The translations under genes and the position numbers were made by a program. Positions 266 to 7,675 of a DNA stretch of 20,181 nt are shown here, one piece after another. A model generated the notes under the pieces. The model saw only the letters and a program-made list of their open reading frames with translations. It searched no databases and was not told the origin of the DNA. Each line of letters starts with the position of its first letter. The stretch's first letter is position 1. This DNA comes from a virus. The stretch is from positions 1 through 20,181 of the IMG/VR virus record IMGVR_UViG_3300021964_000737; one strand, given 5' to 3'.

Positions 266-1600
266 TTATTCTTTTCCATATGAGTCACGGACTAGTCCAA
301 GACTTGTTACTGTATTATCTGCTGTTAGTTTATGACAGACATGTGCCACTAAGTATTTACCTTCTGTCTTCTTATTTATTTCATCAGTACCGCCTGCTTT
401 TTGTTCAGGAAAAGCACAGTATATCATTTGTCCTGCTCTAATCTCAAACATACCAGGAATTGTAATGTTAGTGATGATAGTAAACAACTGATTGTATCTC
501 ATAATAGATTGAACCGTTGACCGATTAGCATCAAAGTTGGATTGTCCTGGATTATCCTTCACATACTTTAGTTGTTCTTCAGCATTATTTCCTGGAGGAT
601 TGTATCCAATATCCATAACACTAGTCATTAATCTAGAGGGACCTGCAGTAAAGTTCTTATTGACTAAATCAGCACTGTAAAATCTACCTGCTGTTTTAAC
701 CTTTCCCTTCTGCTGATTACTTCCATAGTCAATCACATTATAGTTGAAGGAAAATGGGTCATAATAAGTTGACCGGTTTCTATAAGTTCCAAGACTTAGA
801 TTCTGATGAAGATCAATGTCTCTCTCAATATCATAATCATAGATTGGCGCATCATATCCATCCTTAAGACCAACTGTTCCTGTATAAATCATTCTCTTGC
901 TTGCAGATTGTTCTAATAGTTTATCTACTGATTTAAAGTTAAATGAGTCACGGTCTTGATAGAAAAGATATCCTGCTGCATTACCTATACTTACATCGGG
1001 AACTGCCTTTGATGCTAACCAAGTACAAACATAAAAAGGTTTTCGACTGTTACCATAAAAGTTATAGTCTAAAGCAGTCGGGTCTACATTAACAGTTTTT
1101 TTACTTTTTAAAACATCTTTAACAATACTTGATACATTAGTAGATATCTTTCCTTGATATCTTTTAACAACTCTAGATAATTCATTAGACAGAGACTCAG
1201 CAGAACATAAGTCTAGAAAGTAAATATTTTTTAAACTATCTGGGGAAGCATTCCTTACACGATTCACATAGAGTTCAACTTTAATAGTACTACTACCTGA
1301 ATCACTCTCTGGAGTAGCATCTTCAATCTCAAGGTCAACTCTTTCTCCTCCTCGTACTGGAAGAAGATCTAATATTCCTCCTGGAGATTCAATTTGTTTA
1401 TTACTTTCAGGTTTAACCGCACCAGTATCTACAATGGTCAATGTAGCAGTTACAGTATTAGACAATATACTCTCATAATATGAAACATCAACCACACCAG
1501 CAGTAATATCTATTGATTTACCTGTGTTACCAGTGATAATACATTTTACTATATTACCAGATTGTAGTGGTGATATTTGACCCGTTTTTGCTTCTAACAT
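266..1600 (-). CDS. gp27: Baseplate hub subunit gp27-like
   Basis: A 444-aa protein lying between the large tail proteins and gp5, the place gp27 holds in T4. T4 gp27 (391 aa) forms the trimeric ring that bridges the tail tube and the gp5 spike. The N-terminal third looks like a tube-fold beta domain (YYESILSNTVTATLTIVDTG). The C-terminal stretch, IPGMFEIRAGQMIYCAFP then YLVAHVCHKLTADNTVTSLGLVRDS, resembles the closing domain of gp27 and related gpD-like hubs. The start overlaps the preceding stop by 1 nt (TAATG). The call rests on gene order and on these patterns rather than on long identity with T4. Confidence 0.8.
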   Translation of the reverse strand: MLEAKTGQISPLQSGNIVKCIITGNTGKSIDITAGVVDVSYYESILSNTVTATLTIVDTGAVKPESNKQIESPGGILDLLPVRGGERVDLEIEDATPESDSGSSTIKVELYVNRVRNASPDSLKNIYFLDLCSAESLSNELSRVVKRYQGKISTNVSSIVKDVLKSKKTVNVDPTALDYNFYGNSRKPFYVCTWLASKAVPDVSIGNAAGYLFYQDRDSFNFKSVDKLLEQSASKRMIYTGTVGLKDGYDAPIYDYDIERDIDLHQNLSLGTYRNRSTYYDPFSFNYNVIDYGSNQQKGKVKTAGRFYSADLVNKNFTAGPSRLMTSVMDIGYNPPGNNAEEQLKYVKDNPGQSNFDANRSTVQSIMRYNQLFTIITNITIPGMFEIRAGQMIYCAFPEQKAGGTDEINKKTEGKYLVAHVCHKLTADNTVTSLGLVRDSYGKE

Positions 1601-4600
1601 TATCCTTGCTTATATAAGAATCCTAATAACTGTTGTTTATAATAACTATTTACCACGTCTCTGGTAGACGCTGCCATTAGAACAGGACTTGAACCTCCGC
1701 CTGCTACAACAGTTTGTTGTTGCTGCTGTGAAGGCACATATATTGTATTCTCTGCACCTTGTTCATAAGATGCTAATCCACTAATAGATCTTGCTCTACT
1801 GCTAGTAACTGCTCCAGGTGTAGTAACACTTGCTCCTGCTCTAGGTCCATTAGAACTCAAGATAAGATATTGAACATAAGGTGAGGGGTTTCCAAGCCCA
1901 CCATATGTTGTTCCATTCTTTTTATTATCAACTTCAAAGTGAAGGTGTGGTCCTGTTGACATTCCAGCACCTCTATCTCCTTTTGCACCACCTGTTCGAC
2001 CAAGTGCTGTGCCTGCAGGTACTTTTTGTCCTTTCCTAACAAGAAACTCTTTAAGATGTGCAAGTCTAAATTGAAGACCTAATGATGGTGCCCAAGCATC
2101 AATTACATATCCATAATTACCGTTGCTTGCAGCATACATAATCTCTACTGGAACAGAGAGAGCAACGAAAGTTCCTACTGGTGTTCCAATATCAATACCA
2201 CCATGCGGTTTATTGCGTTCACCTGTTACGGGATGAGTTCTATTTCCATAAGGCGATCTAACCGGGAATCCACTAATCATATCACCCTTCTGTGTTCCAG
2301 TCGTTTGTCCAGCCCTTGACACAGCAGATCCTGCTATTTGTGCCTGTGATATAGATGCCGTTGGTGAGACCATTCCTGTATTTCCAGCAGTATTGAATAT
2401 GTGCCCACCTAGTGTAGTAGGATTAACATCCTGCGACCTATCATAACCAGCACTATGAGTTCTAAAACCAGTCGATTTCATAATATTATTAATATCAGAC
2501 GCAGACATCGACTTACCTTCTAATGTTGCCCTTAAACCTGCTGTATTCTCAGCCATTGCTAATGCTCTGATTGCCCTTCGTCTTTCATCCTCAGTAATAG
2601 ATGGTAATCCATTGTTGTAAGGTGTGTATTGATCTGGAGCACTAATCACATCAAATATACTACCACTCTTTGCATTGAATGTATCGGGAGTTACCTTTCC
2701 ACTTTGAATAAGACCTGCTCGGTTTAAAACAGACCTAGCAACTGCCGCCATACCTAGTTTACCTTCTCCACCTGCCTCAGCAATCATTAACTTCAATAAC
2801 AGTTCTCTTTCATTGCCCTCAAGTTTTGTAGCAGGCATAGAACCTCTTGGTGGTGGTGATTCTTCCTCCTCCTCACCTTCTTTTACCTTTGATTTATCAT
2901 CAACTTCTCCCTTTTCATCTGTGCTTGGTTGGAACAATGCAGTAACCATTGCTTTACCCATTGTACCAAATGCTCCAAGTAGTCCCAAAGGACCCGTAAA
3001 CATCTTAGGATCAAGTATTTCTTTACCACCCAACCCAAAGGGAACCCACTTTGGTAGTTTTGTTTTAGGAAGAGCTTCCCAAAATTTTGAAACAACTCCT
3101 TTCATCCAATCTAATATTTTACCACCTACCTTTGCTACTTGCCCAACAGCATCAAATATTTTCTTTTGTGCTTTCTTTGGATTCTTTTCAATGATAAGAG
3201 AATAGGCAGCATCGCCCATTACCTCACCAATCAGTCCACCAACGATTGTACCTAAACCAGGAATAGGAATAAATGTTCCTAAAAACTCACCAAGTCCAGC
3301 ACCAATTGCTTTAAATGCTGCTTGTCCAACTGGTTCATTTGAAAGTACACTCGTAGTAAAAACAATAAGTGGACCTACAATAGGAACACCACGAACACCT
3401 CTGCCTGCTCTCTTCAAAACAGGGGCCGAATTTGTAAGTTTTTGAAGATCTTCAGGTTTAGCGATTCCAAATAGTTTTTGAAGAAACGCATTTCCTGCCT
3501 TTGCTAGTTTCTTTCCTTTCCTAAACGTTCCAACAGTTGATCTCTGTAATCTTGATCCTTTGCCACCAAATGCTGTTCCAGTCTCAAGACCAGCTCCAAA
3601 TCTTCTTCTTACGCCGTCTAATCTTCCAAGTGGTCCCTTCTTAGGAGTAGGTTTAAACTGTGATGTTTTTTTTCTTGCTTGTTCTAGATCAAATCCACCT
3701 GCTGCTGCTTGTCCCGGTGAGCGATATCTTCCTGGACCTCTGAAACCTGATGTTCCTGGTCTTCTATATGTTCCAGTCCCACCACCCGTTGATCCTTTTG
3801 ATTTAGGATCATCTATAGGTGGAAGTCCACGCAATAGATTAAATTTATTTCTAGCAAATTTAAGTATTGCTCCTCCAAGTGACTTAATACCTTTAAGAAC
3901 ACCACCAGCAATCTTTCCAATTTTTCTTCCTATTGTTGCTACTAACTTAAAGGGTGCTTTGATAGCAAATTTAAGTACACCTTTTATTGCTTGAAGACCG
4001 CCTCTCAGAATCAAGAATGAAGCATAGATATTATTTTCAAGTAACTTAAATGCTGATTTCATTTTATCAACATTATTAATCATCCATAGGATGAGTCCAC
4101 CAAGTAATATGTTGGTGAAGAAGTCAATGATATTAAACTTTTTAGCAACACCCATTGCGGCAGAACCAATGCCGCCAAGATTTAGTCTTCTCTTCTCTAG
4201 ATTTTCTTCTCTTTGTTTCTTCTTCTTAGCAGATGTTACTTTCTTTTTATTATCTACTTTCTTCTTATCAATTAATAACTGCTTCTTAAGAGTCTTATCA
4301 AGTTGAGTGGTAGTCTTAACAATGCCCTGCATTGTTTTAGTTAGACTTTCATAACTAGTCTTCTGCTGTACCGTATCAACAGATCCTACATCTTTAGATG
4401 TATTAAGAAGTTTTTGATATGAAACTCTCTGTTGAGTTTTTCCTTGAGATACTTCTGCTCTCTTAACTAAAGCACCGCCTTTAGATTTTACTTTCTCTTT
4501 CTTCTTTCCCTTTACAAATTTCTTTGCTGCTTTCTTCGCACCTTCCTTCACTGCCTTCTTGGCCATCTGTGAAGTTACTAATCTTGTTGCTGCGCTAAGA

Positions 4601-4617
4601 AGAAAAGGTATCGCCAT
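1600..4617 (-). CDS. Large tail protein with SleB-like hydrolase and M23 endopeptidase domains
   Basis: A 1005-aa virion protein. Residues 20-145 are very Lys-rich and probably helical. Residues 163-182 hold a hydrophobic segment with the motif DFFTNILLGG. Residues 265-370 are Gly/Pro/Arg-rich, 410-478 are glycine-rich and hydrophobic, and 573-588 are acidic. Residues 604-740 look like the SleB/CwlJ cell-wall hydrolase family (AEAGGEG, then AAVARSVLNR; likely catalytic Glu614). Residues 783-912 are a LytM/M23 zinc peptidase with HGGID (His805, Asp809), His854 and HLHFEV (His891, His893). Two peptidoglycan-cleaving domains suggest local wall digestion during DNA injection. It lies between the amidase-bearing tail protein and gp27, where T4 has gp28/gp29. 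Domain calls are firm; a tape-measure role is inference. Confidence 0.82.
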   Translation of the reverse strand: MAIPFLLSAATRLVTSQMAKKAVKEGAKKAAKKFVKGKKKEKVKSKGGALVKRAEVSQGKTQQRVSYQKLLNTSKDVGSVDTVQQKTSYESLTKTMQGIVKTTTQLDKTLKKQLLIDKKKVDNKKKVTSAKKKKQREENLEKRRLNLGGIGSAAMGVAKKFNIIDFFTNILLGGLILWMINNVDKMKSAFKLLENNIYASFLILRGGLQAIKGVLKFAIKAPFKLVATIGRKIGKIAGGVLKGIKSLGGAILKFARNKFNLLRGLPPIDDPKSKGSTGGGTGTYRRPGTSGFRGPGRYRSPGQAAAGGFDLEQARKKTSQFKPTPKKGPLGRLDGVRRRFGAGLETGTAFGGKGSRLQRSTVGTFRKGKKLAKAGNAFLQKLFGIAKPEDLQKLTNSAPVLKRAGRGVRGVPIVGPLIVFTTSVLSNEPVGQAAFKAIGAGLGEFLGTFIPIPGLGTIVGGLIGEVMGDAAYSLIIEKNPKKAQKKIFDAVGQVAKVGGKILDWMKGVVSKFWEALPKTKLPKWVPFGLGGKEILDPKMFTGPLGLLGAFGTMGKAMVTALFQPSTDEKGEVDDKSKVKEGEEEEESPPPRGSMPATKLEGNERELLLKLMIAEAGGEGKLGMAAVARSVLNRAGLIQSGKVTPDTFNAKSGSIFDVISAPDQYTPYNNGLPSITEDERRRAIRALAMAENTAGLRATLEGKSMSASDINNIMKSTGFRTHSAGYDRSQDVNPTTLGGHIFNTAGNTGMVSPTASISQAQIAGSAVSRAGQTTGTQKGDMISGFPVRSPYGNRTHPVTGERNKPHGGIDIGTPVGTFVALSVPVEIMYAASNGNYGYVIDAWAPSLGLQFRLAHLKEFLVRKGQKVPAGTALGRTGGAKGDRGAGMSTGPHLHFEVDNKKNGTTYGGLGNPSPYVQYLILSSNGPRAGASVTTPGAVTSSRARSISGLASYEQGAENTIYVPSQQQQQTVVAGGGSSPVLMAASTRDVVNSYYKQQLLGFLYKQG

Positions 4618-4618
4618 A

Positions 4619-6781
4619 TTATCCTACGATATTATAGATTGATTTAATGACGATTAGTTCAGTATTCCTAGGGTCAGTAGCAGAAAACTTAGGCAATGTA
4701 GATTGTGACCCACTAGACGCACTATTTGGGTTAGCACCAGGGTTCTGACCACCAGGAGGCAGTATGACTACTCTAGTTCTTCCTCTTCCATCAGGGGCAC
4801 CAGGAGCAGTTAGAGGAGCATTACTTGGTCTCATCTGAACTTGTTGTTGAGTGGCGGCCGCTAAGGGAACATTACTGGGATTCATCTTTACATTTGCAAA
4901 AGAGTTCACAAGAGATTCTGTTATTCCAGTTAGTTGCTTTTCACTTAAACCAGCACCACTCTTCACTGCCTGCTGAAGTTGTGGTGACATATTACCTAGT
5001 TCAATAATACTCATGCCTCTATTAGTTGCAGCAAGACCGCCCCTATGATCTCTTGCAAATGCACCGTATGTTTTTGCGAAATAAGCTTCAACAATATTGA
5101 TTTGATCTGTTCCTTTCATAGGAAGAATCACACCTCTCCCTGTTCCAAATCCAGACTCAAGTGAGGCATCCATATGAATCTCAATCACTTCATAACCCTG
5201 TTTCTCATATGTTTTTAACTTATCTTGTTGTTGAGTAAATCCAGCAGGAGTATTTGGAGTTGAATCATGCATGTCCATCAATCTGACTGGAGCACCAGGA
5301 TACTTTGCTTTAATATTATCAACTGCATTTCTTGCTAATGAACGAGTGAGTTCTGCTTCACCAGGAGCACCCATGCCAGCAGCATGTCCAGGAACAATAA
5401 TATAACCCTTAGGTCCATCACCACCACCAGAACCATAATTTGCTGTGGGTGCTGATCCTTGTCTACCCAATCCTAACCCACCACCATTTTCAAACCCCAG
5501 AAGATTTCCTTTACCTATCTTAGGTCTATTAGTTCCCCCAGCAGCAGCATTAGCAGCAAGTAGATTTTCCCTACCATACATATCTCCTGCTTTATTACTC
5601 ATCACAACTTCACCAGGAGAAAGTGCTACCAGTTGCGTATCAGCACCCATACCAGAGATTTTTTGACCTGTTGAATCAGTTACCAGTGAACCACCAGATA
5701 ATCCTGCGACTGGTTCTGGTGCAGCAAATGGATTTTCATATGGTTCTATCATAGGGATTGACAGAACTGGTTTGTCCTCCTCTTTGATATTGTCTATAGG
5801 GTCAACACCAAAGAGTGCTAATGCTTTATTAACATTATCTTCTAGAGCATTAAAGGCATCAAAAATACCACCAATAAAATCATTAATAGGTCCTAATATA
5901 TTTTCATTTGTCCAAGTAGATATAGAGTTTATAAAATCAATAAACTTATTCACAAAATCAACAAACGGTTGAAATGCTTTTGATGGATCTTTTAAGATTT
6001 CAATAAGACGAAGTAATGCTCCACCTAATAATATATTTTTAAAGAAGTCCAGAATCATATCAAAGAAACTGCCAGCAGGTTTCAATGCTGCCTTTGCTGC
6101 ACTCTTAAACTTATTATCTTTTTCAGGTGTTTCTAACTTTGTCTCTCTTGTCTTCTTCTTTAATGTATCTGCTGCTGATACTTCTTTCTTTTCACTCTTC
6201 TTTTCTAACTGGAACTGTTTGTTGAGTGTTTCAACAATACTATTAAGATTCTCAGATATCTTATTGACTTGTGGGACTAATGTATTTTCAATAAACGCAG
6301 AAGAATCATCTGGTTTTATCTTTTGTATTTCATTTATTACATCATCCTGCAACTTAGTTTTAGTTGCTGGTCCCTGCTTCTTAGGGGCAGCACTTTTTTT
6401 CTGAATCGCACCAGAAAAGAAAGCATCTGCTTTTACTTTCTTCTTGGGTTTGGGTTTGAATCTACCTGTCTTTGATTTAACTCTCTTAAACTCATTCGTA
6501 AGAAGTTCTACTTCTTCAGTAGGCATCTGACTGTTGGACATTCTACCAGCAGCCATCTTCTCTCTGAGAAGAGTTTTATATGTATCGTAATCTATATCAC
6601 TAACATCATCTAATCCTAAGAGTCTTAGGATTATTTCTTCAATATTATCTTCCTTAACTGATTGTTTCTTCTTTGCCTTAGAAGAAATAGCAAGCGCAGA
6701 GGATCCACCAGAAGGATTAGACTTCTTCTTTCCTAATATGCTATTCAGTAGATCGTCTAGACCCTCTGGGATTTCATCCAT
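4619..6781 (-). CDS. Tape-measure-like tail protein with N-acetylmuramoyl-L-alanine amidase domain
   Basis: A 720-aa protein. The N-terminal 230 residues are Lys-rich and helical. Residues 245-257 carry DFFKNILLGG, the same motif as the neighbouring 1005-aa protein. Residues 375-410 resemble the phage tape-measure motif of the type D-x-L-x-A-x-LSPGE (here QLVALSPGEVVM). Residues 455-632 look like a zinc amidase (Amidase_3): His466 in VPGHAAG, Glu475, His536 in EIHMDAS, and catalytic Glu594 in IIELGNMS. The C-terminus is Pro/Gly/Asn-rich. The gene starts inside the end of a small ORF that is probably reached by frameshifting, which is the position of the tape measure gene in many phages. It could be the tape measure itself or a tape-measure-associated lysin. 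Confidence 0.75.
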   Translation of the reverse strand: MDEIPEGLDDLLNSILGKKKSNPSGGSSALAISSKAKKKQSVKEDNIEEIILRLLGLDDVSDIDYDTYKTLLREKMAAGRMSNSQMPTEEVELLTNEFKRVKSKTGRFKPKPKKKVKADAFFSGAIQKKSAAPKKQGPATKTKLQDDVINEIQKIKPDDSSAFIENTLVPQVNKISENLNSIVETLNKQFQLEKKSEKKEVSAADTLKKKTRETKLETPEKDNKFKSAAKAALKPAGSFFDMILDFFKNILLGGALLRLIEILKDPSKAFQPFVDFVNKFIDFINSISTWTNENILGPINDFIGGIFDAFNALEDNVNKALALFGVDPIDNIKEEDKPVLSIPMIEPYENPFAAPEPVAGLSGGSLVTDSTGQKISGMGADTQLVALSPGEVVMSNKAGDMYGRENLLAANAAAGGTNRPKIGKGNLLGFENGGGLGLGRQGSAPTANYGSGGGDGPKGYIIVPGHAAGMGAPGEAELTRSLARNAVDNIKAKYPGAPVRLMDMHDSTPNTPAGFTQQQDKLKTYEKQGYEVIEIHMDASLESGFGTGRGVILPMKGTDQINIVEAYFAKTYGAFARDHRGGLAATNRGMSIIELGNMSPQLQQAVKSGAGLSEKQLTGITESLVNSFANVKMNPSNVPLAAATQQQVQMRPSNAPLTAPGAPDGRGRTRVVILPPGGQNPGANPNSASSGSQSTLPKFSATDPRNTELIVIKSIYNIVG

Positions 6782-6953
6782 TCTGTCTTGCCTTTGACTT
6801 TTGCTCTTCGTCCTCTAAGTGTTGCTGTAGAAGTGCGACATAAACATCACGCTCCCAAGGCATCATGTTTTCAATCTCAGTTAATGAATATTTATGGTAC
6901 TGCATCAGGGCAAAATTTAACTTATAATACCCCTCAAGATCCATATGGATCAT
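6774..6953 (-). CDS. Small ORF in the -1 frame, putative tail-assembly chaperone extension
   Basis: A 59-codon ORF beginning MIHMDLEGYYKLN and containing MQYHKYSLTEIENMMPWER. It ends TGA and overlaps the ATG of the 720-aa tail gene by 8 nt. It lies in the -1 frame relative to the gp26-like gene, whose stop is 2 nt upstream of this ATG. The -1 frame is open back to 7004, so a -1 slip would add RVG plus these 59 residues to the gp26-like protein, giving about 300 aa. The W-E-R core after a helical aromatic stretch resembles the T segment of tail-assembly chaperones. Independent initiation is possible, at ATG 6953 or at ATG 6944, which has TAGGG about 9 nt upstream. That the ORF is translated is likely; its function is inference. 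Confidence 0.7.
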   Translation of the reverse strand: MIHMDLEGYYKLNFALMQYHKYSLTEIENMMPWERDVYVALLQQHLEDEEQKSKARQNG

Positions 6954-6983
6954 CCCTACGCGAAAAAACTGGATAAACCCTCC
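6938..6983 (-). promoter_or_regulatory. Candidate programmed -1 ribosomal frameshift signal
   Basis: On the minus strand GGAGGG (6983-6978) is followed after 9 nt by T TTT TTC (6968-6962), phased as X XXY YYZ in the upstream gene's codons AGT TTT TTC. Next come GCG and the TAG stop, then, 10 nt after the heptamer, the 14-nt perfect palindrome GATCCATATGGATC (6951-6938). An upstream SD-like stimulator about 10 nt from the slip site is the arrangement known from bacterial dnaX. A 5-bp hairpin could form downstream. The -1 frame leads straight into the small ORF 6774-6953. Confidence 0.7.
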
Positions 6984-7675
6984 AAAACGACAGTGCCTTT
7001 TTTCTTAGTCTTAGGATTCTTTACTTCAATTTCATGCGATAGTTTAGGCATAGTATTGAAAAACTCTTCAACTTTTTTAAACTGAAGAGAGTTCATCTGT
7101 TCTAAGAACTCATTAATCTCCTCACGACTACAATCTTCTGCTGCCCAGACATCATCTGCACTAAAGATTTTATCAATACATCCACCAATAATTTCAAAGG
7201 ATTGATCCATTGCGGAATCATCGCTAAGGTCAAAGTTGTTTTTAATAAACTGGTCAAGAGAAGGATACTTCATCTCCATTGTAAGTTCGTCATCCAGTTT
7301 AATCATCTTGTCATGGTTTTCACTGAACTTGACTTCAATCTCATCAAGATTAATCTTGACTGGAACTTCAGTCTCGCCATCATCAGGACAAATGATATTG
7401 ACTTCTACTTCTTCTCCAACAGACTTGCCTCTGATATTAAGGAACAAGAACTCAATGTCAAATGTAGGAAGGTCTTCTACTTTAATGTTTCTTGTGGAAA
7501 TACAGTTCTTGATTACGGTTTTGATTGCTGTAGTAATCTGAGTATTATCTTCGCTCTCTAAGGCAAGTACTAAAAGTTTTTCTTCTCTTACAAGGAAAGG
7601 TCTATACTTAATCTTTTGTTTGGTCGAAGGTAATTCCAACTCATATGTCGGTGTTGAAATCTTAGGTAAAGGCAT
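6956..7675 (-). CDS. gp26: T4 gp26-like baseplate hub/tail assembly protein
   Basis: A 239-aa protein starting MPLPKISTPTYELELPSTKQ with KYRPFLVREEKLLVLA and, in the middle, VEVNIICPDDGETEVPVKIN. This looks like the T4 baseplate family (gp26/gp51-like; probably Pfam T4_baseplate), usually annotated as a baseplate hub subunit in cyanophages. It would be the shorter product of a G/GT-type pair, because a slippery heptamer lies two codons before its stop and the next ORF is in the -1 frame. In T4, gp26, gp51 and gp28 act in hub and tape-measure assembly, which agrees with a chaperone role. The start ATG has only a weak ribosome site, but a late-promoter motif lies 25 nt upstream. Which T4 gene number applies is uncertain. 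Confidence 0.65.
   Translation of the reverse strand: MPLPKISTPTYELELPSTKQKIKYRPFLVREEKLLVLALESEDNTQITTAIKTVIKNCISTRNIKVEDLPTFDIEFLFLNIRGKSVGEEVEVNIICPDDGETEVPVKINLDEIEVKFSENHDKMIKLDDELTMEMKYPSLDQFIKNNFDLSDDSAMDQSFEIIGGCIDKIFSADDVWAAEDCSREEINEFLEQMNSLQFKKVEEFFNTMPKLSHEIEVKNPKTKKKGTVVLEGLSSFFA

Follow-up and report, generated by a model that had tools for sequence, protein, structure and literature searches.

A probable programmed −1 frameshift at the gp26–gp51 junction of T4-like phages

Known frameshifting systems and the layout of the locus

The −1 frameshift of the lambda-type tail chaperones (Xu, Hendrix & Duda 2004) was described in a 2016 review as widely conserved "except T4" (PMC5009743). 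In the Vandenendeviridae and Andersonviridae, the TAC locus carries a conserved −1 frameshift in the tail chaperone gene, with a GTTTTT motif (PMC12846349). T4-like TAC genes were identified by Vladimirov et al. 2022 (as related in PMC10274946 and PMC12846349). This work is cited by PRFect for T4-like phages with separate short and fused genes, and in PMC12846349 for the slippery poly-T runs that TAC-N genes of T4-like phages contain. Going by these citing statements, the core idea of a T4-like TAC frameshift has probably been published already, and the remark in the first-pass annotation of this DNA that no such description was known for the T4-like family does not hold against that attribution. 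The covarying stem-loop, the selection test on the SD-like element and the order-wide survey presented below may be new.

The window, which is the whole stretch of DNA analysed, is a 20-kb virus record (20,181 nt), to which, among named phages, myoviruses of Synechococcus and Prochlorococcus are closest. All the features described here are on its minus strand. A gp26-like gene of 239 aa (6956..7675; PF12322 T4_baseplate, E 2.3e-74; phrog_150, E 1.8e-80) ends with the codons TTG GAG GGT TTA TCC AGT TTT TTC GCG TAG. The heptamer TTTTTTC, in frame as T_TTT_TTC, is read directly in the sequence at 6962..6968, as is the gp26 stop TAG at 6958-6956. Upstream, a putative SD-like 5' stimulator, GGAGGG (6978..6983), is separated from the heptamer by a 9-nt spacer. 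Downstream, the 14-nt palindrome GATCCATATGGATC (6938..6951) starts 10 nt past the heptamer and corresponds to a stem-loop, in which a 5-bp stem (6951-6947 with 6942-6938) closes the loop 6946-6943. The −1 frame is open from position 7004, i.e., 46 nt ahead of the gp26 stop, and enters an ORF of 59 codons (6953-6774). The first-pass annotation had already read the gene end and the phase of the heptamer correctly to the base, had placed GGAGGG and the palindrome at these same distances, and had pointed out that the narrow stretch in which the shift is allowed contains the heptamer; all of this was borne out.

The 59-aa ORF is a member of a genuine protein family, gp51 (phrog_634, "baseplate hub assembly catalyst"; E 1e-28), and has a further match at the C-terminal end of phrog_150. 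In the annotations of relatives this C-terminal part is listed as a separate "gp51". Counted from the heptamer, 62 aa would be added in the −1 frame (RVGMIHMDLEG..., 6774..6962; phrog_634, E 1e-28), and this extension aligns with T4 gp51 at its C-terminal end (prob 96.8). The predicted transframe gp26-gp51 product would be 300 aa long (6774..7675), with 238 zero-frame and 62 −1-frame residues, and is colinear with the T4 gp51 family. Directly downstream, the start of a 720-aa ORF (4619..6781) overlaps the end of the 59-aa ORF by 8 nt. The small ORF had been said to end on the start of a tape-measure-like gene: the junction is confirmed, and the 720-aa ORF is a tape-measure candidate by position only, no tape-measure family match having been obtained in the protein-family searches (Pfam-type and phrog). 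Within 1600-6781 of the window, the 720-aa protein and a 1005-aa protein share a match to phrog_35029 close to the N-terminus, and the latter also matches Peptidase_M23 and, weakly, a cell wall hydrolase. No Rfam family and no tRNA was found on scanning the window.

This layout shares with lambda gpG/gpGT a short chaperone ORF, a −1 heptamer near its 3' end, a −1 C-terminal extension and then a long ORF, and the modelled N-domain fold resembles the HK97 chaperone. It differs from lambda, the heptamer of which is G_GGA_AAG, in the slippery sequence, in the protein family (PF12322) and in the SD-like and stem-loop elements. The three-part design with an upstream SD-like element, a slippery heptamer and a downstream stem-loop is that of E. 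coli dnaX, although the dnaX heptamer is A_AAA_AAG instead of T_TTT_TTC, and the shift shortens the product in dnaX whereas it lengthens it here. The T-rich slip site of the Vandenendeviridae and Andersonviridae is a further shared trait, in other phage families, and is closer to the GTTTTTC of a Vibrio phage described below than to the heptamer of the window.

We consider it very probable, from the comparative sequence evidence, that programmed −1 ribosomal frameshifting at this junction makes two proteins, TAC-N and TAC-NC, in the manner of lambda gpG/gpGT and by means of a dnaX-like three-part signal. The comparisons that follow uphold the reading put forward in the first-pass annotation, a G/GT-like frameshift in which an SD-like stimulator lies 5' and a stem-loop 3' of the slip site. 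In this model, most ribosomes would finish at the gp26 stop and release the 239-aa TAC-N. A fraction of them would be paused by the stem-loop ahead and by GGAGGG pairing with 16S rRNA, and would slip back one base on U_UUU_UUC, the tRNAPhe re-pairing on UUU UUU. The slipped ribosomes would then continue in the −1 frame and produce the 300-aa gp26-gp51 fusion, TAC-NC. If the lambda proteins are a guide (PMC5009743), a role in coating or binding the tape measure may fall to the N part, and one in recruiting the tail tube subunits to the C domain. We infer the slippage itself, its efficiency, the stimulating roles of the two flanking elements and the gpG/gpGT-like action of the two proteins; the three-part signal is directly testable in a reporter.

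Conservation and codon choice at the slip site

Five viral-contig scans with gp26 queries (two of them small), together with named records, provided 326 loci and 279 distinct junctions. An in-frame T_TTT_TTN heptamer situated 0-1 codons before the stop was present in 275 of these 279 junctions: 254 were TTTTTTC, 12 TTTTTTA, 6 TTTTTTG and 3 TTTTTTT, the T_TTT_TTA, TTG or TTT forms being found in divergent members. Elsewhere in these gp26 genes, the background rate of an in-frame T_TTT_TTN was 0.00058 per codon (34 of 58,754 codon positions), so the recurrence of the heptamer at the same place is not due to chance. Among the named phages that agree are P-SSM2, P-SSM7, AS-szw, Marzo, phiM9, QD01, Atu_ph04, 121Q and others. 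The signal had been proposed for a T4-like cyanophage; it is indeed present in cyanophages but is not confined to them, as it extends over the Kyanoviridae, several genera of Straboviridae, the Pootjesviridae, Menderavirus and jumbo phages, with the T4-type phages as the exception.

The four junctions without the heptamer were those of T4, Erwinia COW86c, Vibrio BX-1 and the locus L249. T4 and COW86c are of the two-gene type, discussed below. In Vibrio phage BX-1, a member of the Ackermannviridae (L092, 2492-3420), the sequence is GTT TTT CGC, with a non-canonical GTTTTTC, and in Vibrio phage D510 (L344, 439-1395) it is CTT TTC AAG, with no canonical heptamer. The −1 extension is kept in both, which suggests a different slip site. 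In L249, on a 236-kb contig (1495-2394), the T-run is short by one T and gp26 and gp51 form a single ORF; either a homopolymer error or a genuine fusion could account for this. This locus was considered as a counter-example and dropped, since with one T missing gp26-gp51 reads as an in-frame fusion.

The use of codons at the slip site was compared with an expectation based on each gene's own codon use, among representatives at 95% identity. In this set, which was picked for having the heptamer and excludes just 4 of the 279 junctions, the base preceding TTT-TTC was T in 229 of 229 cases (140 expected) and the first Phe codon was TTT in 229 of 229 (164 expected). The second Phe codon was TTC in 208 of 211 (60 expected). 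Judged against this expectation, the codon choice at the heptamer is selected beyond the amino-acid need. The first −1 codon is usually CGN (Arg), which would give FFR in the transframe protein, and the preference for TTC fits dual coding because its C opens this first −1 codon.

The fusion could also arise by slippage during transcription, and not on the ribosome, at the six consecutive Ts, which are extended in a few members (L079, for instance). However, the run is almost never lengthened, the second Phe codon is held as TTC at the frequency given above, and ribosomes are what an SD-like element and a stem-loop act on, so that we regard slippage during transcription as extremely unlikely.

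The flanking elements

For ribosomal frameshifting, the two elements flanking the heptamer were analysed in 117 clusters defined at 80% identity. An SD-like motif was found within 24 nt upstream of the heptamer in 115 of the 117 cluster representatives, and in about 97% of the clusters it ended 8-9 nt before the heptamer. The pairing with the anti-SD was −7.6 kcal/mol, synonymous randomisation gave −6.1 kcal/mol (t = −8.8), and the effect was near zero at eight control positions. By this test the SD-like motif is selected beyond the synonymous expectation. An alignment of the junction against a synonymous background had been suggested in the first-pass annotation, and both parts of it, the codons at the heptamer and the SD-like motif, came out above expectation. 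A role of GGAGGG as the gp51 SD was rejected: the motif is too distant from any start, and its spacing is constant to the heptamer and not to the start.

On the 3' side, the 42-nt segment beginning 3 nt past the heptamer had a mean folding energy of −8.6 kcal/mol versus −4.8 kcal/mol in dinucleotide shuffles (t = −11, n = 117), and this folding peak was the sharpest within the roughly 460 nt scanned. Covariation was measured by counting pairs explicitly and comparing the counts with shuffles and slides. For the 5-bp stem, 61 cells changed on both sides were counted in 106 near relatives, compared to a shuffled mean of 23.6 (0 of 500 shuffles reached this number), and two pairs of the stem took the top two ranks for mutual information out of all column pairs tested. 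The arms of the stem hold reverse-complementary codons (ATC/GAT, GTC/GAC, GTT/AAC, ACT/AGT, ATT/AAT), and therefore the amino acids change together while the pairing is kept.

The clade of P-SSM2 shows a different stem, of 10 bp, in which one pair is U-A, G-C or A-U with 24 cells changed on both sides. The total of such cells in this clade exceeded that of all 500 shuffles, and the number of pairs having changes on both sides was not above the shuffles. For the 106 close sequences RNAalifold returned no consensus stem, and for the 60 sequences of the P-SSM2 set 3 pairs only, probably because the register and strength of the stem vary. In some lineages the stem is weak or absent. A second folding region stronger than shuffled (t about −6.8 across relatives) was visible about 219 nt past the heptamer, at 6700-6745 in the window, close to where the next gene starts.

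In the window's nearest clade the stem-loop contains CATATG. It is conceivable that, in addition to the frameshift fusion, some free C domain is made in this clade by internal initiation, the stem-loop sequestering the ATG; in the window, ATG 6944 has AGGG upstream and could serve as a start for the C domain by itself. In the P-SSM2 clade, however, this ATG is missing or out of frame and the stem is still there, and such a double origin of the C domain seems to us rather unlikely.

The −1 reading frame, gp51 and the case of T4

Past the heptamer, the −1 frame was open over 56-71 codons in 267 of the 267 junctions with enough sequence. A −1 stop was present immediately 5' of the heptamer in ten of the 117 clusters, and therefore in these the shift must occur at the heptamer itself. 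The annotations, in which gp51 is listed as its own gene, correspond to another reading: ribosomes terminating at the gp26 stop would reinitiate nearby on an ATG belonging to gp51, which would then be an independent protein, and the T-run would merely encode Phe-Phe. An ATG is the fourth −1 codon in 56 of the 117 clusters, and the window offers ATG 6953 as a possible start, besides the one at 6944. Against this, 43 of the 117 clusters have no ATG within the first 14 −1 codons, and in S-CAM1 and S-WAM2 the frame is conserved though no gene is annotated there. A separate gp51 would also leave unexplained the selection on the third base, the SD-like motif and the stem, as well as the correspondence of T4 gp51 to the full fusion, and we hold it to be very improbable. 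The public annotations themselves are uneven: the gp51 start is placed deep inside the domain in P-SSM7 and C48C1, and gp51 is left out in S-CAM1, S-WAM2, AS-szw and LPCS28. As the cyanophage "gp51" entries are either a C-terminal fragment or missing, many genomes need a joined CDS.

Returning to the frameshift product, a virtual fusion was assembled from the zero-frame and −1-frame parts of diverse relatives and compared with the T4-type proteins by hhalign. T4-type gp51 (249 aa) was colinear with the fusion from residue 6 to the end, over 242 columns and across the frameshift join (prob 99.5). T4-type gp26 matched the N part only and stopped at the join (prob 99.3). As judged from these alignments, T4 gp26 is the N domain and T4 gp51 is the N plus the C domain. 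The two are separate genes in T4, 44RR and COW86c and are adjacent in EC-F2. These four phages carry the two forms in separate full-length genes, whereas the group of the window has one gene and a −1 ORF, and the heptamer is missing in the two-gene phages where it was checked (T4, COW86c).

The chaperone nature of the N domain was approached with a structure model of gp26 (pLDDT 85.8), the close structural matches of which were viral gp26 proteins. For residues 1-86 of the model, a second-look aligner gave the HK97 tail assembly chaperone 2ob9 as the best PDB match (Z 7.9), followed by 3fgx (7.7) and 3klu (7.3), which also belong to phage-like tail chaperone families, before a drop to 4.7. Foldseek of the model against the PDB was not significant (E 0.89), and solved structures searched by sequence gave no match. 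There is moderate support from the model for a chaperone fold of the gp26 N domain.

Most relatives of T4, including abundant marine cyanophages, keep the frameshift signal, and the two genes of T4 correspond to the two products predicted from this signal. We lean slightly towards a scenario in which the dnaX-like three-part signal, with a covarying stem-loop that shifts its register between clades, is the ancestral source of both tail chaperones in T4-like phages; the T4 lineage would have exchanged it for two full genes, gp51 being the hard-wired frameshift product. The C-terminal extension is not uniform across the survey. In the jumbo phages 121Q (L093:2315-3360) and Atu_ph07 (L346:709-1551), the gp26 homologs end with CAT TTT TTC and the −1 frame runs into very different C-terminal extensions.
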